64,000 bases of DNA, from assembly GCA_022843745.1 (NCBI GenBank), contig JALHNB010000004.1:124001-188000 (forward strand), in the 5' to 3' direction. The notes beneath the pieces were generated by a model. The model saw only the letters and a program-made list of their open reading frames with translations. It searched no databases and had not been told where the DNA came from. Numbering within the stretch: the stretch's first letter is position 1; each line of letters starts with the position of its first letter. Positions 4,778-16,290 of this stretch are shown here, one piece after another. The translations under genes and the position numbers were made by a program. Source of the DNA: Anaerolineae bacterium (lineage in GTDB: Bacteria > Chloroflexota > Anaerolineae > Aggregatilineales > Phototrophicaceae).

Positions 4778-7111
4778 TCAAATCCGTCGTGCTGCGCCTG
4801 ATCCGGTTTCTTCCAGACGGCGGCTGACATAGGCCATCGTGTAGCTGAAGGCGAAATAAATGATCGCGATGAAAAGAAATGACTCGCGCCGTAAGCCGAT
4901 AAATTCGGTTTGCGCGACGACTGTTTCCGAGATACCCGCCAGATCGAGCAAGCCGACGATGGCGACCAATGAGGTGTCTTTAAAGAGCGAAACACACTGT
5001 CCCATCAGCGCCGGGATAACCGCCCGCAGCGCCTGTGGCAGTGTGATATACAGCGTCACCTGGGCTGCATTTAATCCGAGCGCTTTGGCGGCTTCTTCCT
5101 GACCAGGTGGCACGGATTGCAGACCGCCTCGAACATTTTCGGCCAGATATGCCGCGCTGAAAAACAGAATACCGATCATGGCGCGAAAGACGTTCGGCAC
5201 CTCAGCCAGTGTTGGGTTCAACAGCGGTACGAGAAGCTGAGACATAAACAGCACGGTAATCAACGGCACGCCGCGCACGAATTCGATATACACGGTGCAA
5301 AAGGTGCTGACAACCGGAAGGCTGCTGCGCCGTCCCAACGCCAGCAAAATACCAATTGGGAATGAACCCGCGATGCCGACAATCGTTAGCAGCAAGGTCA
5401 GCAAAAGACCGCCCCAACGCCGCGTGTCGGTCAGGGGGAGAATGTTCGTAGCGTCAAAAAAGAGCGCGAGAATCGGGCCACCTAAAGCGATTAAAAAGGT
5501 CAAAATAAGCCAGAGGGAAGCTGTTCTTGGTGATGTACTATCGCGACGCTTACTACCTAACCATGCAGCTAACGTGCCAATACCAATCCAAAACATAATA
5601 GCAAACAGATTACCCGCGACAAGGTGAGGAACTAATCGAAAGCCTAATGCTACTAAAAATAACAAAGCTGCCCAGTAGCTATTCAACTTCATGCCATAGA
5701 AGTACATGAAAGCGATCCAGGTTATTGTGAAGATCCAAACGCCTAGTGCGATAATACCATCGCCATCGATTCCATATACCATCGCAAACATCAATATTGG
5801 GATAGCCGTTAACGACCAGATTGCCACCCGCTGGGCGATTCGTGGAGCGAAGGTTCGGCTTAGAAATTGGCTTCCCACATACCCCGCAGCCCCTAAAATC
5901 AGAACCAGTAGAAGCGCCAGATTGATTTTGTTTAGCATCGGCGCCAGGAACAACCGCAAATAATCACTGAATGGGCGTGTGCCGCGATACTGATTGTCGA
6001 TGATGATCGTCGCTGGAACATTATCGCCATCAATCGTGGGGCGGATCGCACGGGTGGTGAAGTCGTCGGTCATACGAACATATTCGAGGACACGCCCGCC
6101 GGATGAGCCGCTTTCACCCGTATCACCCGCCGCGAACTCACGTACCAATATAGGGTAAATACCGCTTGTCTCAAGGATGGCCGCACCATCACCCGTTACC
6201 CGTTTATCCAACACATACCAGCCGCTTGCCGGAAGTGTCAATTCAAGCGGTGGCGAACTGGAGTCGAGCTGCGCACTGGCGAGAGGTTCGAGCGTTGCAC
6301 CGTCAAGAATTTGCACATCGACTGTTTGTTGGTCGATAGCATAAGTTTCGACGACAGGCGGCGGAACTTCCAGTCCTTCAAGTTCGGCTGTCAATTCTTC
6401 ACGTTGGCGCGGGGTAAACAAATCAGCCGCTAACGCACGCTCAATTTCGGCGATTCGCGCCTGGGTAGCCAGACGATTCTCGGCGGCAGCCCGCAGCAGA
6501 TTGCTGGAAATATCGCTAAAGCTATATAAACCCGTCAGCGCCTCATCGCTCACCGCGAGATCATGCGCCAGTTGAATACTGATTTTTTCGCCCGCTGCAC
6601 CAATAAAACCGACCTGCGGCTGTGGGGGTTCAGTCGTTGAGCCAGAAACGATATCCACCCCACTGGCTGCGAAATTTGCATGAGGCTGCGACGTTACCGC
6701 CATAATCACAGGCGGCAAAATAAATGCCAGCGCCAAAAGCACGACTAAAACGATCACCAGAAAGCGTGAAATCCGCGCCCAGGTCGCCAGATTAAAGCCG
6801 ATAGCGAAGGCCACAAATAACAGCAGCAGTTGCAAACGCCATTCAGCCTGCGGCTCATAGCGCCCGATCATATATTGGCGCAGGTTGAAGGTAATGATGA
6901 ACCAGTTCGCGCCGCCGATCACCCACTGCACCATTGACGTAATCACCGTGAAGATGACTGCCGCCGCGACGAACGTCAGGATGGTATCCATCCACGAAGG
7001 AAATAAATTATTACGAATCCAGGCCAGGGGGCCAACAGCCAGGCGGGGCGGGGCTTTAACTTGCGGCTCGTCGGTATTGACGCGGTTGGAGGGGTCGGAA
7101 ATCGTCGCCAT
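4778..7111 (-). CDS. aapM: Amino-acid ABC transporter permease, AapM-like, enlarged
   Basis: The C-terminal ~220 of 777 residues form a standard His/Glu/Gln/Arg-type permease domain with the EAA loop EEAAKALGLNAAQVTLYITLPQALR, which docks on AapP. Typical AapM proteins have roughly 380 residues. The extra length comes from N-terminal membrane segments, a ~230-residue extracytoplasmic region (about 150-380) with a helical Glu/Ala-rich stretch (RIAEIERALAADLF) followed by beta-rich sequence, and extra membrane segments before the permease core. ATG 7111 is preceded by AAGGTAAC and lies five bases after the aapQ stop; an upstream in-frame ATG at 7168 would overlap aapQ and looks unlikely. Transport role is well supported; the role of the insert is unknown. 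Confidence 0.88.
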   Translation of the reverse strand: MATISDPSNRVNTDEPQVKAPPRLAVGPLAWIRNNLFPSWMDTILTFVAAAVIFTVITSMVQWVIGGANWFIITFNLRQYMIGRYEPQAEWRLQLLLLFVAFAIGFNLATWARISRFLVIVLVVLLALAFILPPVIMAVTSQPHANFAASGVDIVSGSTTEPPQPQVGFIGAAGEKISIQLAHDLAVSDEALTGLYSFSDISSNLLRAAAENRLATQARIAEIERALAADLFTPRQREELTAELEGLEVPPPVVETYAIDQQTVDVQILDGATLEPLASAQLDSSSPPLELTLPASGWYVLDKRVTGDGAAILETSGIYPILVREFAAGDTGESGSSGGRVLEYVRMTDDFTTRAIRPTIDGDNVPATIIIDNQYRGTRPFSDYLRLFLAPMLNKINLALLLVLILGAAGYVGSQFLSRTFAPRIAQRVAIWSLTAIPILMFAMVYGIDGDGIIALGVWIFTITWIAFMYFYGMKLNSYWAALLFLVALGFRLVPHLVAGNLFAIMFWIGIGTLAAWLGSKRRDSTSPRTASLWLILTFLIALGGPILALFFDATNILPLTDTRRWGGLLLTLLLTIVGIAGSFPIGILLALGRRSSLPVVSTFCTVYIEFVRGVPLITVLFMSQLLVPLLNPTLAEVPNVFRAMIGILFFSAAYLAENVRGGLQSVPPGQEEAAKALGLNAAQVTLYITLPQALRAVIPALMGQCVSLFKDTSLVAIVGLLDLAGISETVVAQTEFIGLRRESFLFIAIIYFAFSYTMAYVSRRLEETGSGAARRI

Positions 7112-7115
7112 AGCG

Positions 7116-8807
7116 TTACCTTGTAACCAATTGGAAGCGACGGTTGATCCAGTTACTTCCCGCTGCAATAATCAGGCTGATAATCAGATACGTTAACATG
7201 ACCATGACCATCCCCGTAACCGATTGACCAGACTGATTCATAATTGTCGTTGTAATCAGGAACAAATCGGCATAAGCAATCGCGATTGCCAGACTCGAAT
7301 TTTTCGAGAGGTTCAGATATTGATTGCCAAGCGGCGGGATAATCACGCGCAGAGCCTGGGGCAGGATAATCAGTCGCAGCGTTTGCGAGTTGGTCAACCC
7401 CATCGCGCGTGCCGCTTCAAGCTGACCATAGGGAACGGCCTGGATACCCGCACGGACGATCTCGGCGATAAAGGCAGACGTATAAACAACCAACCCTAAA
7501 AGCAGCGCCATATATTCGGGCTGAATCTCTGTGCCAACGATGAACTTAAAGTTCGTGCGCTCCGGCAGGCGGAAGATCAATGGCGATGGGTTATATTGCA
7601 GTTCATCCTGGATGGTGAGCAGATTTCCAGCGCGGGCTTCTTCCAGCGGCATATAAACCGTCTGGTCTTCCTGCAAAACTGGAATTGATACAGGCGCAGG
7701 TTCGCTGCCGACCACAACCCAGCCGACAATCGCGAAAATGACAACTGCCAACAGCGCATACCAGCCGCGCGGGATAGGCTTGCCGGTGGTTTCGGTGATG
7801 CGTCCAAAATAGACCCACTGCGCGATTGCCAGCACGATGCCCAGCCCGACAAAGGCCATCCATTCCGCAAAACGTGCAGTCGTCAGCAGCTCCGGGAACG
7901 CGAAACCGCGAATGCTGGCATAAAATGCCGGATAAATTTCGATGCGAAAGGCCGAGTTGGGGATAATGCCAAAATAGACGAGCAGCCCACCGATGGCCTG
8001 CCCGATGCTCGATCCTAGTGTCAATCCGCGCCATTGTATCGGCACGAACCAAGCCCCGACGATCAAGACCGCGCTGATGACCGCGTACAGCAGAAAACTA
8101 CTGCTGGTCATATCGCCGTTGGCATAAACACTTTGCCAACTGGGTTGATTGTTATACAGCCAGAAGCCGATCTCGATCATCACCAACATTGCTGCCACAC
8201 CGGAAATAATCGCGTTACGCCGGAATGAGCCTATTTCCCAGCGGCGTGTCCGCCACCAGATCACTAAAATCAAAATTCCATAAAACGCGATTCTGATCGG
8301 AATATGGGCGACACCTTCGGGCGGGAAGGTATAAGCCTCCCTAAAGATGGGAAGCGAGAGCATGACAATGAAATACCAGACGAATAATTGCAGGAGCAGC
8401 GGCGTATTGCGCAAAAGCTCGACATAAACGCGCGAGATAGTGCGTACCAGCCAGTTGCGGCTCAATAAGAAAACACCGATCAGAATACCCAGCAGAGTCG
8501 ATAGCACTAACCCTACTGATACAACACGGAGCGTATTGACCAAACCAACCTGGAAAGCGGTCCCATAACTGCTATTGGAGGTGTACCAGGATGGGCTGTT
8601 GCTGATGTCAAAACCTGCCCGATTTTGCAAAAATGCCAGATTGGGCGTGAGATTATTTTTCTGGAGAGCCGCAAATACGTCTGTCATGATGCGCGAAACC
8701 ACAAAAACCACGAGGATCGCGAAAACGATTTGACCAATCACTTGTAGGAAGCGGACATCTCGCAGGAATGAGGGTATGCTGCTGGGCTGGTGTTGAGTGG
8801 CTGACAT
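7116..8807 (-). CDS. aapQ: Amino-acid ABC transporter permease, AapQ-like, enlarged
   Basis: A 563-residue membrane protein with the two halves of an AapQ-type permease separated by an insert. The N-terminal part has GLVNTLRVVSVGLVLSTLLG and the motif YVELLRNTPLLLQLFVWYF; the C-terminal part has AGIQAVPYGQLEAARAMGL, the EAA loop that contacts the ATPase. Between them (about 165-430) are additional hydrophobic segments and loops, so the protein is longer than the usual ~400 residues. It forms a heterodimer with AapM in the family's known complexes. The start at ATG 8807 has only a weak ribosome binding site. A palindromic repeat (8834-8862) separates it from aapJ. Confidence 0.88.
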   Translation of the reverse strand: MSATQHQPSSIPSFLRDVRFLQVIGQIVFAILVVFVVSRIMTDVFAALQKNNLTPNLAFLQNRAGFDISNSPSWYTSNSSYGTAFQVGLVNTLRVVSVGLVLSTLLGILIGVFLLSRNWLVRTISRVYVELLRNTPLLLQLFVWYFIVMLSLPIFREAYTFPPEGVAHIPIRIAFYGILILVIWWRTRRWEIGSFRRNAIISGVAAMLVMIEIGFWLYNNQPSWQSVYANGDMTSSSFLLYAVISAVLIVGAWFVPIQWRGLTLGSSIGQAIGGLLVYFGIIPNSAFRIEIYPAFYASIRGFAFPELLTTARFAEWMAFVGLGIVLAIAQWVYFGRITETTGKPIPRGWYALLAVVIFAIVGWVVVGSEPAPVSIPVLQEDQTVYMPLEEARAGNLLTIQDELQYNPSPLIFRLPERTNFKFIVGTEIQPEYMALLLGLVVYTSAFIAEIVRAGIQAVPYGQLEAARAMGLTNSQTLRLIILPQALRVIIPPLGNQYLNLSKNSSLAIAIAYADLFLITTTIMNQSGQSVTGMVMVMLTYLIISLIIAAGSNWINRRFQLVTR

Positions 8808-8833
8808 ACGGCTAAAAATGACCCCCGATTAGA

Positions 8834-8862
8834 GTAGGGGCGACTCGGTGAGTCGCCCCTAC
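8834..8862. repeat. Palindromic repeat, copy 1 (12-bp arms)
   Basis: GTAGGGGCGACT, 5-base centre, AGTCGCCCCTAC: perfect 12-bp arms. It sits between aapQ and aapJ and could act as an intercistronic hairpin that stabilises the upstream aapJ message. It is a member of the family described in the findings. Confidence 0.85.
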
Positions 8863-8873
8863 ATACGATTTGA

Positions 8874-9920
8874 TTAGCGGAAGGGCGGTGAATACATCAG
8901 GCCGCCATTCGTCCACAGGTCGTTGACACCACGACCCAGGTTGAAGGGGGTGTCGGGGCCGAGATTACGATCAAAAATTTCACCGTAATTGCCCACCTGA
9001 CGGATGACCGTCACCATGAAATCGTTGGGAATGCCGAGCAGTGAGCCAATGGCGTTATCGCCCTGGCCGAGGAAACGCTGAATTTCAGGAACATCACTGC
9101 CAACGAAATCATCAATGTTCTGGCTGGTGATTCCATATTCTTCTGCCTGGATCAGGCCATAAACCGTCCAGCGGACAATGTCTGCAAACTGTTCGTCAGT
9201 TTGTGGCGACAGCGGCCCCAGCGGTTCTTTGCTCAGGGTGATGTCGAGAATAACATGCGCACCGGGATCTTCCGCGCTGCCCTTGTAGGCAATCAGACCA
9301 CTCTTGTCGGTTGTGAAGGCATCGCAACGTCCAGCCAGATAAGCGTCCCAGGTCGCTGTAGCGTCCGCGAACACTTGCGGGTCGTAGTCCAGGCCACGCA
9401 CCGACATCGCATCGGCGAGGTTGAGTTCAGTGGTCGTACCGGATTGGACGCAGATTGAAGCGCCATCCAGTTCTTCAATAGCGACGATACCGCTTTCGGT
9501 CTTCACCATGAGGCCTTGACCATCATAGAAGGTCGTCGGGCCAAAGGTCGCTGCCCACACCACATCACGGCTGAGAGTGAAGGTCGTATTGCGTGACATC
9601 ACATCAATCTCACCGCTCTGAACTGCGGCCTGACGTTCGCCAGCTTCCAGAGGACGGAAGGAAACTTTGGTTGAGTCACCCAGAACAGCGGAGGCAACTG
9701 CGCGGCAAATATCCACGTCAAAGCCCTGCCATTCACCAGCTTCGTTAACGGTGGCAAATCCAGCGAGACCTGAGCCATTCGCACCGCAGACCAATTCGCC
9801 ACGATCCAAAATAGCTTGCGTGATGGGGCCGACTGTAACCTGATCCTGCGCGACTGCTACCGACATAACGCTAAACGCGGCAACCAGCGCAAGCAAAACA
9901 AAAGCTAAACGTTTAAACAT
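8874..9920 (-). CDS. aapJ: Amino-acid ABC transporter substrate-binding protein
   Basis: A 348-residue secreted binding protein of the AapJ/BztA family. A signal peptide (MFKRLAFVLLALVAAFSVMSVAVAQ) is followed by ILDRGELVCGANG, the GFDVDICRAVASAVLGD motif of family 3 binding proteins, and VMSRNTTFTLSRD, whose arginines are expected to bind the ligand carboxylate. ATG 9920 has a perfect AAGGAG; the frame remains open further upstream without a better start. As the first gene of aapJQMP it should be the most abundant product. It captures L-amino acids outside the membrane and delivers them to AapQM. Confidence 0.93.
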   Translation of the reverse strand: MFKRLAFVLLALVAAFSVMSVAVAQDQVTVGPITQAILDRGELVCGANGSGLAGFATVNEAGEWQGFDVDICRAVASAVLGDSTKVSFRPLEAGERQAAVQSGEIDVMSRNTTFTLSRDVVWAATFGPTTFYDGQGLMVKTESGIVAIEELDGASICVQSGTTTELNLADAMSVRGLDYDPQVFADATATWDAYLAGRCDAFTTDKSGLIAYKGSAEDPGAHVILDITLSKEPLGPLSPQTDEQFADIVRWTVYGLIQAEEYGITSQNIDDFVGSDVPEIQRFLGQGDNAIGSLLGIPNDFMVTVIRQVGNYGEIFDRNLGPDTPFNLGRGVNDLWTNGGLMYSPPFR

Positions 9921-10174
9921 AGAGTATCTCCTTAGAAGATGGGATATAAAACTCTTGCATTCACAATTCGAAGTGCAAATCAAGCTTTACAATGTTGGTA
10001 CGATTTGGTTCTTTACTTGGTTTAGCAGTCTACCCTACACCCGAAAAGATGTCAAAAATTAACATATCGGATTGTTTCAGCATTGTACCGAACCCAGAAC
10101 ACAGATTATGCGGCGCGTTTTTACAAGACGCTGCATTATTCTTATGGTAGAAATGACCAAACCTGCACCACAAA

Positions 10175-11269
10175 TCAGCGCCAGAGGGGAGAGAAGATCA
10201 ATCCGCCATCCGACCAGAGCGCGTTCAGGCTGCGTTCAATTGGTAACGTGCTGGCAGCACCCAGCGAACGATCATAAATCTCGCCATAATTGCCGTTCTG
10301 CCGGATGACCTCGGCCATAAAATCGTTCGCCAATCCCAACTGACCACCCAATCCCAGGAAAGGGTCTACCAGACGGGCGATAGGCAAGCCGACTCGCGTG
10401 GTATAGATTTCGTCGGTTTCATCTTCAAGGCGCAGAAATTCGTCAATATTTTCACTGCTGACACCCAATTCTTCGGCATAGATCAGCCCCCAGATTGTCC
10501 AATCAACAATGCTGCTCCACTGTTGATCGCCATAGCGGTAAACGGGAGCGATGGCAACACGCGTGAATGGCTCACTCCAGACCACATAAGATGAAGGATC
10601 ATCGGTGCTATGACGGCGGATCTCGAGCAGTGAACGGGATAGAGTCTGGGCATTGCAGCGACCAGCCAGAAACGCTTCCTGCATGGCAGCGGGTGTATCA
10701 AGCGATAGTAAATCATAGTTTAAGCCACGCTGACTCATTGCCGAGTCCAGATTGCTCAGGTCGTCTGAGCCAGTGAGCGCACAGATCGTTTGCTCGTCCA
10801 GGTCTTCCCAGGCTTCGATGCCGCTGTCGGTACGCACCATAATGGACTGACCATCATAAAAGATGGGTGGGCCAAAATCCAAGCCCCCCTGCGCATCCTG
10901 AGTCAGATTTTGAGCCGTGTGTTGTATAAACAGAACATCCAGTTGGCCTGAAAGCAGCGCAGTGGGCGGTGTATCGACAGTTTGCAGGCGCAGGTCGATA
11001 GCAGTGGCATCACCAAAAATTGCAGTTGCAACTGCACGGCAAAAATCGATATTTATGCCGCTAATGCTGCCCGTATTCGGATTGAGGAATCCAAAACCGA
11101 AAATTTCCTGGTTGATACCGCAAATCAATTGACCGCGTGTGAGAACGGTATCCAGCATAGAACCTGGCACTGGAGTCGGCGTTGGTATTAGTTGTTGAGC
11201 AAAGGTCAGTGAAGGCCAGATAAGCACCAACAGAATCAGCAGAAATGGCGTTCGTTTGAGTTTAAGCAT
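10175..11269 (-). CDS. Second, diverged AapJ-like substrate-binding protein
   Basis: A 364-residue exported protein (signal peptide MLKLKRTPFLLILLVLIWPS, cleavage near TFAQ). The fold follows AapJ: LTRGQLICGINQ, GINIDFCRAVATAIFGD, FYDGQSIMVRTDSGI and a matching C-terminus (NGNYGEIYDRSLGA). The ligand segment differs: where AapJ has SRNTTFTLSRD this protein reads FIQHTAQNLTQD, so both arginines are replaced by glutamine. ATG 11269 has AGGA at good spacing; an ATG 12 codons upstream is less likely. It lies directly upstream of aapJ on the same strand and may feed the same permease with a different ligand, or be a paralogue losing function. Confidence 0.85.
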   Translation of the reverse strand: MLKLKRTPFLLILLVLIWPSLTFAQQLIPTPTPVPGSMLDTVLTRGQLICGINQEIFGFGFLNPNTGSISGINIDFCRAVATAIFGDATAIDLRLQTVDTPPTALLSGQLDVLFIQHTAQNLTQDAQGGLDFGPPIFYDGQSIMVRTDSGIEAWEDLDEQTICALTGSDDLSNLDSAMSQRGLNYDLLSLDTPAAMQEAFLAGRCNAQTLSRSLLEIRRHSTDDPSSYVVWSEPFTRVAIAPVYRYGDQQWSSIVDWTIWGLIYAEELGVSSENIDEFLRLEDETDEIYTTRVGLPIARLVDPFLGLGGQLGLANDFMAEVIRQNGNYGEIYDRSLGAASTLPIERSLNALWSDGGLIFSPLWR

Positions 11270-11276
11270 AAATTTC

Positions 11277-11558
11277 CTACGTAGCATCTGGAGGACGGAT
11301 TTCATTCAGTTTTTTAACGATGAGCGCCCGGATTTCACCAGGTTCAGCGTGGCGTCCAAGCGTTTTTTTCGAAAAGATCAATTCACCATTAACGGACACT
11401 TCAAAAACACCGCCTTTGCTGGGAATCAATCTCCATGAACGGATAAACACCTCGATTTCACGCTCGTTCAAAACCTCGTCTGTCAAACTGACAGCGCGTG
11501 GGGTATGGTGTCAAACCGCACAATATTCGACAGTAATGTCGATGAGAGCAAGCTGCAT
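11277..11558 (-). CDS. SelT/SelW/SelH (Rdx) family protein, candidate selenoprotein with in-frame TGA
   Basis: Reading from ATG 11558 (GGGAG eight bases upstream), the frame gives MQLALIDITVEYCAV, TGA at 11513-11511, then HHTPRAVSLTDEVLNE and the complete Rdx domain (RLIPSKGGVFEVSVNGELIFSKK, GRHAEPGEIRALI) to the stop at 11277. With TGA read as selenocysteine the product is 93 residues with CAVU, which aligns with the redox CxxC of Cys-containing homologues; the PRA..L..E.L pattern after it matches the family as well. Conventional gene calling would start at TTG 11486 and lose the redox motif. A hairpin suited to be a bacterial SECIS element follows the TGA. The family (thioredoxin-like redox proteins) is certain; selenocysteine is an inference. 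A pseudogene with a nonsense mutation is the main alternative. Confidence 0.72.
11480..11494 (-). promoter_or_regulatory. Candidate bacterial SECIS hairpin
   Basis: On the minus strand, CTGTCA-GTT-TGACAG forms a 6-bp stem with a GUU loop whose first base is G. The stem begins 16 bases after the in-frame TGA, so the loop G is about 23 bases downstream, inside the window known for bacterial SECIS elements. Confidence 0.5.
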
Positions 11559-11705
11559 CGTTTTTTCTCCCAATAGTCATACACGACTTAACTATAGCAA
11601 ATCTACGAATTTCAACCAAAATTAGGAATTCGTTGCTTGACGTAAAGAGACTTTAAATATCACAATAAAAATATACAGTATTCAGTGAGATAGAGGGAAA
11701 TACCT

Positions 11706-12233
11706 GTGCAAACACTAAATTCCGATGTCAAGTGGGTGAACTGCCGATACTGCGGCAAGACAAACCAGGCGCACCAGGTCGTATGTCATGCCTGCGGGCG
11801 GTTGTTGATGCGGGCGAAGCAAAACCAGGAAGCACAGGTTATCGACCCCACCAGTGACCGTTACAAGACTCAGGAATTTTTTAGCGATCACTCGATCCTC
11901 AATCTTCGGGTCAACGAAACCGGTAAAGTCTACGAACTCTATCCTCAAAAAAGCAGAGTCGAACTGCTGATCGGGCGTTTGACCAACAACAGCAAACCTG
12001 ATCTTGACCTGGGCGAACAGGGCGGCGATAAGCGCGGTGTTTCGCGGGTTCACCTCTCCGTTCGTTATGACTTTATCCAGCACACCGTTCACGTCAGTGA
12101 CCTGAGCAGCGCCAATGGTTCATTTATCAATGGGCAGCGGATTTACCCCAACGAAATTCGCATTCTACGGGATGGAGATGAATTGAAATTGGGCAAGATG
12201 GCTTTAAACGTGAGCTTTTCACATCCGAAATAA
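11706..12233 (+). CDS. Zinc-ribbon and FHA domain protein
   Basis: A 175-residue cytoplasmic protein. Residues about 11-34 form a zinc ribbon (CRYCGKTNQ...CHACGRLL, two CxxC pairs). An FHA domain fills about 75-175, with the core residues GR (LLIGRLTN), SRVH and NGS (SSANGSFINGQRI). FHA domains bind phosphothreonine peptides, so a Ser/Thr kinase elsewhere is implied; none is in the window. GTG 11706 has AGAGGG at good spacing. It shares its whole architecture with the next gene, which has an additional N-terminal extension, so the two are tandem paralogues. Confidence 0.85.
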   Translation: MQTLNSDVKWVNCRYCGKTNQAHQVVCHACGRLLMRAKQNQEAQVIDPTSDRYKTQEFFSDHSILNLRVNETGKVYELYPQKSRVELLIGRLTNNSKPDLDLGEQGGDKRGVSRVHLSVRYDFIQHTVHVSDLSSANGSFINGQRIYPNEIRILRDGDELKLGKMALNVSFSHPK

Positions 12234-12304
12234 ATGTATATTCGGTCTGCGTAAGTTCTGAGTAAACGTGTGGTCTGTGCAGATGCGAGGAGTTGTTGGT
12301 CAAA

Positions 12305-13186
12305 ATGGCGGCCCTACAGAAGATTCTTGCTGAATATGCCAAAATGCGCGATAACGGCGTGGAAGTCAAAGCCAGCTTAAATACTCTGCGCGATGAAATT
12401 GAACTGCTCAATGAAAAAGAAAAGCAGGATTTGGTACGCCTGCTGCGCGCACACGAGGCAGGGGAAACCCAACCTGTCACAACAGCCACGCCTGTTCAGG
12501 CAACTGCCTCTGTTCAGCCGATCACGCCTATTCAGGCAGTTGCCCCAGCACAACCGATCACACCGATTCAGGTGGCTACCCCGCCTGTCGAGCATGAAGC
12601 AACTCGTAAAATTCCGCTGCGCAATCTGGCAAAAGAACGCCAAACCAATGAACAGGAAAAAACCGCGACTAATCAGGTGATCTGGATTAACTGCCCCAAC
12701 TGCAATCGAAGCAATCAGAAGCACGAACTGGTCTGTTATTCGTGTGGGCATCTTTTGGAAGCGTCCAAAAGCCAGCAGGAAACCCAAGCACTGGCGGAAA
12801 CCAACGATTTAACGTACAGCGAAGATTTTTTCGATCAGGACTCGGTGCTGATCCTCAAGGCACGAAGCAGTGGTAAAACATTTCTGGCCGAGCCACAAAA
12901 AAGCGATCATGAATTGGTGGTAGGCCGGAGCGCGAAAGGCAGCGCGGTGATGCCAGATATTGACCTGGCCGATGAAGACGGTGATAAGCTGGGGGTATCG
13001 CGGCTGCATCTGAATATTGGCTATGATGAACGATCACACACGATCTGTGTCTCTGATATAGGAAGTGCGAACGGAACTTACCTCAACGGTCAGCGCTTGC
13101 ATCCGCATGAAGTGCGTGTCCTGCGCGATCATGACGAAGTGCGTCTGGGCAAACTGGTGCTGCTGGTTTCATTTCGCCATCAATAA
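12305..13186 (+). CDS. Coiled-coil, zinc-ribbon and FHA domain protein
   Basis: A 293-residue paralogue of the preceding protein. It begins with a charged helical segment (MAALQKILAEYAKMRDNG... DEIELLNEKEKQDLVRLLRAHEAG), then a repetitive linker of QPITPIQ and VQATA units (about 55-95), a zinc ribbon (CPNCNRSNQ...CYSCGHLL), and a C-terminal FHA domain with VVGRS, SRLH and SANGTYLNGQRL. A GAGGAG lies 12 bases before ATG 12305; TTG at 12296 is an alternative start. Expected to read phosphothreonine marks, as its neighbour does. The ATG choice is the main uncertainty. Confidence 0.85.
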   Translation: MAALQKILAEYAKMRDNGVEVKASLNTLRDEIELLNEKEKQDLVRLLRAHEAGETQPVTTATPVQATASVQPITPIQAVAPAQPITPIQVATPPVEHEATRKIPLRNLAKERQTNEQEKTATNQVIWINCPNCNRSNQKHELVCYSCGHLLEASKSQQETQALAETNDLTYSEDFFDQDSVLILKARSSGKTFLAEPQKSDHELVVGRSAKGSAVMPDIDLADEDGDKLGVSRLHLNIGYDERSHTICVSDIGSANGTYLNGQRLHPHEVRVLRDHDEVRLGKLVLLVSFRHQ

Positions 13187-14328: not shown

Positions 14329-15108
14329 ATGAGTCATGTTTTTGTTTCATATTCGCGTAAAGACGTCGAATTTGTAGAAATGCTGCGCCAGCGGCTCAGA
14401 GACGCTGATCTTGACGTATGGACAGACAGCGGTGTTCGCCCTGGGAACGACTGGCGCACCGAAATTGATGACGCTATTCGCAATGCCTTCGTGGTGTTAA
14501 TCGTTGTGACACCCGCAGCCAGGGTTTCAGAATATGTCGCCTATGAGTGGGCTTTTGCTCTCGGTGCGGGGATCAAGGTTATCCCCATGATTGTGGAAGC
14601 GACACCGCTCCATCCTCGGCTAGAATTTTTGCAGCATGTCGTATTCAGCGGCGATCCTGATAAAGGCTATCCCTGGGAAAAGCTGATCGAGGGACTCCAG
14701 CAGATCAAACAAGATACGCACTCACCAACCATGCCCGGCCACAATAAAATGCCAGGGCTGCCCGATTTTGGGACAGCGCGGTTGAATGCACCCGGTGTGT
14801 GGTTGATTACCCAGCGTGGGCCGCAGCCGGATCAGCGCTGGAATCTCAACAAGGAAATGGTGACGATAGGCCGCGAAATCACGAACGATATTGTCATCAA
14901 CGACCAGCAAGTCAGCCGTCGTCATGTGCGTTTTGTTCGCATCACGCGCGGCATTGTACCGAATTTCTCGATTGAAGACCTGGGATCAAGTAATGGGACA
15001 TTTGTGAATCAGGAGCGATTGGTGCAGGGGACAAAAGCGCTTAAAGATGGCGATGTGATACAACTAGGCGATACCGTCGTATTGTCCTATAAATTAATCA
15101 TCGAGTGA
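14329..15108 (+). CDS. TIR-FHA domain protein
   Basis: A 259-residue protein. Residues 1-125 are a TIR domain of the prokaryotic type: HVFVSYSRKD at the start, DVWTDSGVRPGNDW, and SEYVAYEWAFALGAG, in which E73 occupies the place of the catalytic glutamate of TIR NADases. Residues about 160-259 are an FHA domain with TIGRE, SRRH and SSNGTFVNQERL. The pairing suggests that phosphothreonine binding recruits or gates the TIR module. It is the middle gene of HEAT, TIR-FHA, TIR-HEAT. NAD hydrolysis is inferred from the glutamate position only; a scaffold role is possible. Confidence 0.85.
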   Translation: MSHVFVSYSRKDVEFVEMLRQRLRDADLDVWTDSGVRPGNDWRTEIDDAIRNAFVVLIVVTPAARVSEYVAYEWAFALGAGIKVIPMIVEATPLHPRLEFLQHVVFSGDPDKGYPWEKLIEGLQQIKQDTHSPTMPGHNKMPGLPDFGTARLNAPGVWLITQRGPQPDQRWNLNKEMVTIGREITNDIVINDQQVSRRHVRFVRITRGIVPNFSIEDLGSSNGTFVNQERLVQGTKALKDGDVIQLGDTVVLSYKLIIE

Positions 15109-15129: not shown

Positions 15130-16290
15130 ATGGCAGATCACGTTTTTGTTTCATATAAACACAATGAAAAAGAGTTCGCGGATGCGTTGATCGAGCAGCT
15201 CCAGGGAGCAGGCTTCAACATCTGGTTGGATACGGAGCAGCTCCGCGCCGGCGAAAACTGGCGCGAAAGTATCAACCACGCCATCAAGGATTCGTTCGGG
15301 ATGATCGTCGTCATAACACCGGATGCCAAAATCTCGGAATTTGTCACTTATGAGTGGGCTTTTGCGCAAGGGGCGGGCATCAAAGTCATCCCGATCATGC
15401 TGACACCGACCAAGCTGCACCCTCAGCTTGAGATGCTGCAATATCTCGATTTTACAGATCGCACCCGACCACCCTGGGACAAGCTGATCCGCCGCCTTAC
15501 GGAAATTCGAGGCGAAAACCAGCCACCACGCGCTGCCAGCGATGCACCACCTGCCATCAGAAGCGCGGTTGGCGCACTCGACAGCCATAACGCTGAGGAA
15601 CGCCGTTCTGCACTCCGCACACTGGCTCAGATCAATCATCCGGCAGCCTACGCCGCAATCGTGAGCGCCGTACAGCACCCCATGCGTGATGTGCGCGTCG
15701 ATGCGGGTTTTATGCTTGCCAAACAGACGCAATACAAAGACTCGGCAGCCGTGCCGGGTTTGCTGGATGCACTGGGTGATGATGACCCGCGTATTCGTAC
15801 AGCAGCGGTCAAAGCACTTGGCGAAATTGGCGATCCGGCGGCTGTACCCCAGCTTTTACACATTATGAACACAGAACGGGATGGCGATATTCGCTGGCTG
15901 GCGACGGGCGCTCTGGGCAAAATTGGCTCGGCAGCCGTACCGGGTTTACTGAATATGCTGCGGGACGAGGACTGGAAAGTACGCCGCAGCGCCGCTGATG
16001 CGATATGGGCGATGCGGGAACCCGGTGCAGTACCCGGCTTGCTGGCCGCGCTGCAAGATCGAAATGATGTGGTCAGGCAAGCCGTTGCTGGAGCGCTGGA
16101 TGCTATTGGTGAAGGTGCAGTACAGCCGCTGATCGAGGCCTTGAGCAGCAGAGACCCGCAAATCAACCGCACTGCCGCCGATTACCTCAATAAAATCGGC
16201 ACACCAGAAGCGCTCACGGCTGTTCGGCAGTGGATGATGAAGACGACAGCCAAGCTGGACGAAAAACGCGGCTATCCGCCACGACGATAG
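15130..16290 (+). CDS. TIR-HEAT repeat protein
   Basis: A 386-residue protein. The N-terminal TIR domain (HVFVSYKHNEKEF, IWLDTEQLRAGENW, SEFVTYEWAFAQGAG with E75 at the catalytic position) is a clear paralogue of the preceding TIR. From about residue 140 the protein is a solenoid of HEAT/PBS-lyase repeats, each near 31 residues, with the recurring pattern AVPGLL.AL.D.D..VR..AA.ALG.IG. TIR plus helical repeats is an arrangement seen in immune and signalling proteins. Its stop codon directly abuts the stop of the convergent SGNH gene with no gap. Confidence 0.85.
   Translation: MADHVFVSYKHNEKEFADALIEQLQGAGFNIWLDTEQLRAGENWRESINHAIKDSFGMIVVITPDAKISEFVTYEWAFAQGAGIKVIPIMLTPTKLHPQLEMLQYLDFTDRTRPPWDKLIRRLTEIRGENQPPRAASDAPPAIRSAVGALDSHNAEERRSALRTLAQINHPAAYAAIVSAVQHPMRDVRVDAGFMLAKQTQYKDSAAVPGLLDALGDDDPRIRTAAVKALGEIGDPAAVPQLLHIMNTERDGDIRWLATGALGKIGSAAVPGLLNMLRDEDWKVRRSAADAIWAMREPGAVPGLLAALQDRNDVVRQAVAGALDAIGEGAVQPLIEALSSRDPQINRTAADYLNKIGTPEALTAVRQWMMKTTAKLDEKRGYPPRR

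Follow-up and report, generated by a model that had tools for sequence, protein, structure and literature searches.

The minus strand of the window, by which we mean the whole stretch of Anaerolineae bacterium DNA that was analysed (64,000 nucleotides), carries a selW-like gene with a single in-frame TGA, a hairpin just beyond this codon and, further downstream, genes of an amino-acid-type ABC transporter (Table 1). Translation from ATG 11558 to the TAG at 11277 gives 93 residues, MQLALIDITVEYCAV-U-HHTPRAVSLTDEVL..., when the TGA at codon 16 is written as selenocysteine (Sec, U), and the redox motif then reads C-A-V-U. Upstream of ATG 11558 the frame is open for six codons, and the sole alternative start is a TTG five codons 5'. 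An earlier note on this DNA had proposed a frame that starts at this ATG, is preceded by GGGAG and passes through the TGA, and had predicted that conventional annotation would leave a 69-residue stub in its place. Direct translation confirms the former point, and the listing of open reading frames under translation table 11 bears out the latter, as the only entry in the selW frame is a 69-aa stub from TTG 11486, a codon which itself falls within the conserved hairpin (11494-11480).

Table 1 Features of the selW-like locus and of the genes downstream of it, in window coordinates.
Feature	Position	Strand	Basis
selW-like gene, 93 codons, putative Sec at codon 16, stop TAG 11279-11277	11277..11558	(-)	translation; Pfam Rdx and TIGR02174 matches across the TGA
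In-frame TGA, very probably selenocysteine, second position of C-x-x-U (Cys13, Sec16)	11511..11513	(-)	homologue column counts
Shine-Dalgarno-like GGGAG, 8 bases 5' of ATG 11558	11567..11571	(-)	direct reading
Predicted apical hairpin of a bacterial SECIS, 5-bp stem, loop AGUUU	11480..11494	(-)	pairing, covariation, synonymous constraint, fold energy
Family-3 solute-binding protein gene, longest ORF, downstream of selW	10175..11305	(-)	Pfam SBP_bac_3 1.9e-7
Second solute-binding protein gene (presumed)	8874-9983	(-)	ORF listing
Permease gene (presumed)	7116-8807	(-)	ORF listing
Permease gene (presumed)	4778-7168	(-)	ORF listing

Family assignment and predicted fold

Residues 8-80, with the TGA among them, score 58.5 bits against the Pfam model Rdx (PF10262; cut-off 22.6, E 7.5e-16) and the stub alone 36.6 bits, in agreement with the proposal that a full SelW/Rdx domain continues past the stop codon. 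The match to the NCBIfam model TIGR02174 (CXXU_selWTH) also spans the TGA, with 48 bits against a cut-off of 34.2 (E 1.2e-12). The best family E-value, 2.9e-21, was obtained with NF041051 (SelTWH_Campy), an equivalog family of the SelT/SelW/SelH type whose cut-off of 88 bits is not reached by the 75.5 bits of the SelW-like protein, which we do not file there. The protein combines an Rdx domain above the curated score with a C-x-x-U motif that has UGA at the second redox position, the marks of the SelW-like (Rdx) family.

The AlphaFold2 model, built on 49 sequences (mean pLDDT 91.4, pTM 0.81), predicts a thioredoxin-like fold in which strand 1 (residues 6-13) is followed by C13-x-x-U16 and by helix 1 (residues 19-30), with the motif between the two elements. 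The 21 top-ranking PDB chains all belong to bacterial SelW-like entries (2fa8, 2obk, 3dex, 2oka, 2p0g and 2ojl), and the same fold is seen in 2fa8 (Agrobacterium), 3dex (Streptomyces), 2oka/2obk (Pseudomonas) and 2p0g (Vibrio) at TMq values of 0.74-0.81 and 22-32% identity. MIEN1 (2ljk) and mouse SelW (2npb, at rank 23) come after them, being of the same fold family with TMq of about 0.6 and 19-24% identity; mammalian SelW has a CxxU motif. Both 3dex and 2fa8 align to the SelW-like protein at their CxxC, with a two-residue gap near residues 37-39, and both have Cys at the column of the putative Sec. These alignments, together with the homologue counts given below, place the TGA at the second Cys of the family's CxxC, as had been claimed. 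Judged by its fold and motif, the SelW-like protein is most likely a small thiol/selenol oxidoreductase.

The Sec column in related genomes

Of the order, 154 genomes were searched; 80 of them have homologues, which gave 83 rows to be read at the Sec column, one of which (L104) does not align there and was left out. In the remaining 82 rows the column holds TGA in 77 and a Cys codon in five, and never TAA or TAG, while the first Cys of the motif is present in every one; the in-frame TGA form is carried by 77 of the 154 genomes searched. A collection of named genomes gave at least 198 confirmed relatives, of which the best 80 were kept. These are mostly from Chloroflexota, with some Actinomycetota and Gemmatimonadales and one Acidobacteria record; 79 have TGA, the named strain Thermanaerothrix daxensis GNS-1 (L191) included, and one has TGT. 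A draw of 400 genomes from the phylum gave matches in 181, and the 29 loci checked at the Sec column all have TGA (L105 among them repeats G092/L067); as the order, phylum and named-genome collections overlap, their counts are not additive. In the phylum search, the G303 row comes from an ordinary Cys-type gene whose end accounts for its in-frame stop, and the G228 row starts only past the Sec column because the contig ends there. The alignments used comprise 47 of the 82 rows of the order (A2; 43 TGA, 4 Cys) and the window with 48 of the 80 named-genome loci (A3). Judged by these sequences, the TGA form of SelW is widespread in Chloroflexota. Besides, another group of Cys-type Rdx rows, from G078, G094 and G095 (the last repeating a G094 sequence), stands on a branch 2.3 changes per column long; it occurs alongside the TGA form in G078 and G095 and is probably a paralogue.

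These counts bear directly on whether an Rdx gene of the ordinary Cys type owes its TGA to a nonsense mutation or a sequencing error, which would make the locus a pseudogene. Such an origin would fit the appearance of a mere stub under table 11 and the fact that certain family members have Cys in place of the putative Sec. However, the constancy of TGA at this column, with Cys in the remaining alignable relatives, already refutes it, and conservation of the protein extends to either side of the TGA; the Sec machinery of the source genome and the selection on the hairpin, both described below, also stand against it. We reject the pseudogene reading, which we regard as scarcely credible. The earlier note had held that both flanks of the TGA are conserved and that the pattern is one of Cys/Sec exchange rather than of random nonsense mutation, and the relatives support it on each count, the N-terminal half 5' of the TGA being intact in them.

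A hairpin under selection downstream of the TGA

The hairpin starts 16 bases 3' of the TGA, and its inner A-U pair can be counted into the stem, which leaves 6 bp and the loop GUU. A SECIS-type hairpin after the TGA is absent from the earlier note. The published model of the bacterial SECIS, as given in the legend to Fig. 2 of PMC13188914, has a loop of 3-9 nt, a stem of 4-16 bp, a G within the first two bases of the loop, a UGA-to-loop distance of 16-37 nt and a minimum free energy of at most -7.5; the present gene agrees with it, having a 6-bp stem, the loop GUU, 22 nt from UGA to loop and an energy of -8.3 kcal/mol for the 39 bases from the TGA and of -9.0 for 42 to 51 bases. Eukaryotic SECIS elements are described as lying in the 3' UTR (PMC12013277), whereas this one lies inside the coding region. 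Applied to single sequences, the published criteria are passed by 75 of the 77 TGA genes, by 318 of 770 control windows taken elsewhere in the same genes and by 3 of the 5 Cys rows. Alone, they are loose and unspecific and were not used as evidence of selection, and the case for the hairpin therefore rests on covariation and constraint.

The 77 TGA genes align without gaps across the 45 bases from the TGA. Columns 20-24 pair with columns 30-34 in 99.7% of cells (65 distinct rows), with compensatory changes on both sides in four of the five stem pairs, and the covariation score is 0.237 versus 0.145 ± 0.007 in shuffles, none of 500 being as high, and versus at most 0.071 in slid controls, figures whose independence, like that of the constraint values that follow, is overstated by the kinship of the rows. 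The second loop base (11488) is G in all 77 genes. Synonymous constraint peaks at the hairpin codons, +6 to +12 after the TGA, which form the longest run of constrained codon columns. Codon use in these genes, codons 0 to +15 excepted, predicts a synonymous identity of 0.23-0.35 at codons +7 to +10, where 0.86-1.00 is observed (74 of the 77 TGA rows, the gapped rows L097-L099 having been left out); Ser at +8 is AGT in all 64 rows with Ser, and codons +16 to +23 match the expectation. Outside the hairpin, z-scores over 5 occur at codons -7 to -5, -1, +2, +3, +15, +24, +32, +36 and +47, the z-scores along the whole gene being inflated by related rows. Taken together, the pairing and constraint patterns indicate that the hairpin structure is kept by selection.

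A different account of these data is that the UGA truly terminates translation and that the hairpin and the downstream frame serve another purpose, for example as a 15-residue leader followed by a 69-residue product restarted at TTG 11486. A TTG does exist at this position and is shared by 64 of 74 relatives, a further four having GTG. Notwithstanding, this conservation is accounted for because the TTG lies in the conserved hairpin, and the codon is CTG in another four of the 74; the stub would be without strand 1 of the predicted fold and without its redox motif, and the sequence ahead of the TGA is conserved together with that behind it as a single domain. Termination with restart was rejected on these grounds, and it seems to us very improbable.

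Sec machinery and other candidate selenoproteins

The source genome (7.96 Mb in 117 contigs, 98.6% complete) contains all four genes of the bacterial Sec-decoding trait, for which the earlier note had suggested a search. The matches to selA (549 bits), selB (394 bits; an ORF of 619 aa) and selD (382 bits; no TGA in the gene) are all over their curated cut-offs and without internal stops, and one tRNA-Sec (selC) scores over its cut-off with 71 bits and is called tRNA-SeC, anticodon UCA, by ARAGORN. With the N-terminal half intact in the relatives as well, neither of the two results that the earlier note had named as refuting its reading was obtained. The association extends over the order: of its 154 genomes, 74 have the TGA form and selB, 3 the TGA form without selB, 36 selB without the TGA form and 41 neither, so that selB is over cut-off in 74 of 77 TGA genomes versus 36 of 77 others (Fisher p = 2.4e-12, uncorrected for kinship). 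The three TGA genomes without selB over cut-off are G081, G083 and G033 (75%, 85% and 81% complete); the first two have a tRNA-Sec over cut-off, with 64.9 and 74 bits respectively, and in G033 neither selB nor tRNA-Sec is over cut-off, its best tRNA-Sec match scoring 46.3 bits against a cut-off of 47.

Any kind of readthrough would keep the frame open, including suppression or misreading of the UGA as Cys or Trp. However, the complete selA/B/C/D set, the association with selB across genomes and the SECIS-type hairpin all point to Sec. In addition, the window has 42 stop-to-stop frames that are 250 codons or longer, and TGA closes 14 of them, TAA 17 and TAG 10 (these frames are not curated genes, and one of them runs off the window end). 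Because TGA closes 14 of these frames, it is no general sense codon here, and a general recoding of UGA was rejected; insertion of Cys or Trp at this UGA is in our judgement extremely unlikely. We infer instead that the stop codon near the start of the selW-like gene is very probably read as selenocysteine.

The possibility that SelW is the sole selenoprotein of the source genome was rejected, as two further genes with in-frame TGA were found. One is a candidate selenoprotein peroxiredoxin at C44:49041-49421 (locus L224, C44:48800-49700, minus strand), with the TGA in T-G-T-U and an AhpC-TSA match of 122 bits, and the other a candidate selenoprotein gene of the AhpD-like CMD type at C33:63639-63788 (locus L225, C33:63300-64200, plus strand), with the TGA in C-V-Y-U and 30.2 bits against a cut-off of 23. 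They fit the TxxU (peroxiredoxin) and CxxU (AhpD-like) entries in the part of Table 2 of PMC2398784 that was covered. A search with one FdhA model for formate dehydrogenase gave a best match in the source genome of 370.5 bits, below the cut-off of 666.25 and with no TGA. In view of the peroxiredoxin and AhpD-like genes, Sec decoding in this genome probably serves several proteins.

Loss and replacement of the Sec form

Two genomes of the order show what may follow when selB is missing. In G056 (95% complete), which has no selB over cut-off, the homologue (L096) has TGT at the Sec column and no hairpin. Its row falls with Sec forms in groups of 3, 4 and 5 rows (support 97/75, 97/76 and 93/92), which are nested in starred groups of 38 and 73 rows that are otherwise all Sec, in a tree that rests on 88 columns and gives G056 a long branch. 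As the Cys form is nested among Sec forms, the likely direction of change is from Sec to Cys. G054 (85% complete) also has no selB over cut-off and has a decayed selW remnant (L104) that, by eye, shows another residue in place of the first Cys and lacks the hairpin stretch, a binding-protein-like frame following it. In both genomes a tRNA-Sec match lies barely over the cut-off (G056:C68:7004-7090, 50.5 bits; G054:C21:28852-28937, 47.7 bits), each 20-32 bases from another weak match in the same search, and these may be ordinary long-arm tRNAs. A survey of 2006 recorded no Sec-to-Cys event for SelW-like proteins among 10 sequences (PMC1794560, Table 1).

Gene neighbourhood

Within the longest ORF of the first solute-binding protein, an in-frame ATG at 11269 lies seven bases past the selW stop and opens what looks by eye like a signal-peptide-like start; the two genes are probably co-transcribed. 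The next three genes, which from reading their sequences we take to be those of a second solute-binding protein and two permeases, prolong the amino-acid-type ABC transporter cluster (4778..9983), and their homologues stand in the same order in two of five longer loci (L138 and L140). Neighbourhoods were counted in the 30 long loci of the 77 TGA genes of the order, the other 47 loci having been fetched with about 300 bases of flank. In 25 of the 30, selW is followed on its own strand, at a distance of no more than 700 bases, by a binding-protein homologue (L036, one of the five without it, has only 129 bases downstream); in 18, FHA genes stand upstream of selW and point away from it. In the class and phylum outside the order, none of 28 loci (L106-L133) has binding-protein or FHA neighbours. 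This neighbourhood, seen in no loci but those of the order, thus gives no general clue to function.

It is tempting to speculate that in these Chloroflexota SelW functions within the amino-acid ABC transporter operon that it precedes, for instance by keeping imported disulfides of the cystine/glutathione type reduced. Gene order is the sole basis of this link, and we consider such a role unlikely. If it were true, it would provide a physiological role for a bacterial SelW, a protein whose function is called unclear in PMC1088965.

Two other gene pairs lie on the opposite strand. The tandem genes at 11706-12233 (+) and 12293-13186 (+) are divergent from selW, the first having an FHA domain and the second being homologous to it by eye. 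The adjoining ORFs at 14329-15108 (+) and 15130-16290 (+) have like starts (HVFVSY...) that appear TIR-like by eye, and of their tails one appears FHA-like and the other HEAT-repeat-like.

Proposed decoding and place among known selenoproteins

Altogether, the locus is almost certainly a functional gene for a bacterial selenoprotein of the SelW-like (Rdx) family, as far as its sequence and that of its relatives can tell. In the mechanism that we propose, SelB carrying Sec-tRNA-Sec would bind the mRNA hairpin 16 bases further on when the ribosome stands at the UGA of codon 16. Selenocysteine would then be inserted, yielding a 93-residue thioredoxin-like protein with C-A-V-U between strand 1 and helix 1, and one transcript would probably cover selW and the polar-amino-acid ABC transporter.

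The bacterial SelW-like selenoproteins (Rdx, PF10262; TIGR02174) have in common the CxxU motif, the domain and a bacterial SECIS just after the UGA, and the locus shows no essential difference from them. They were described in print by 2005 at the latest and are abundant (PMC1088965, PMC2398784). In the parts of these papers that were covered, SelW-like proteins form the most abundant family of the Sargasso Sea selenoproteome, with 48 genes (PMC1088965), and, in the Global Ocean Sampling (GOS) data, the SelW-like CxxU type has the top count in that part of Table 2, with 427 selenoproteins (PMC2398784). For the phylum, the 2006 survey gives three selenoproteins in three families for Chloroflexi (PMC1794560), a text find for "Chloroflexi" in the GOS paper PMC2398784 found no occurrence, and a literature search for SelW or selenoproteins in Chloroflexi/Chloroflexota showed no title on the subject among the matches listed, supplementary tables being beyond its reach.

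The kind of selenoprotein is thus genuine and already well known, the locus adding a further SelW-like example, and the understanding of Sec coding is unchanged by these findings. The finding does rescue a gene which standard annotation would shorten to a stub without the active site. The additions to the biology of the family are modest, namely its wide spread in Chloroflexota, a likely Sec-to-Cys replacement and the recurrent place before an amino-acid ABC transporter. With one Cys replacement and one decayed remnant, the clade may serve as a natural experiment on the fate of a selenoprotein once the Sec machinery goes.
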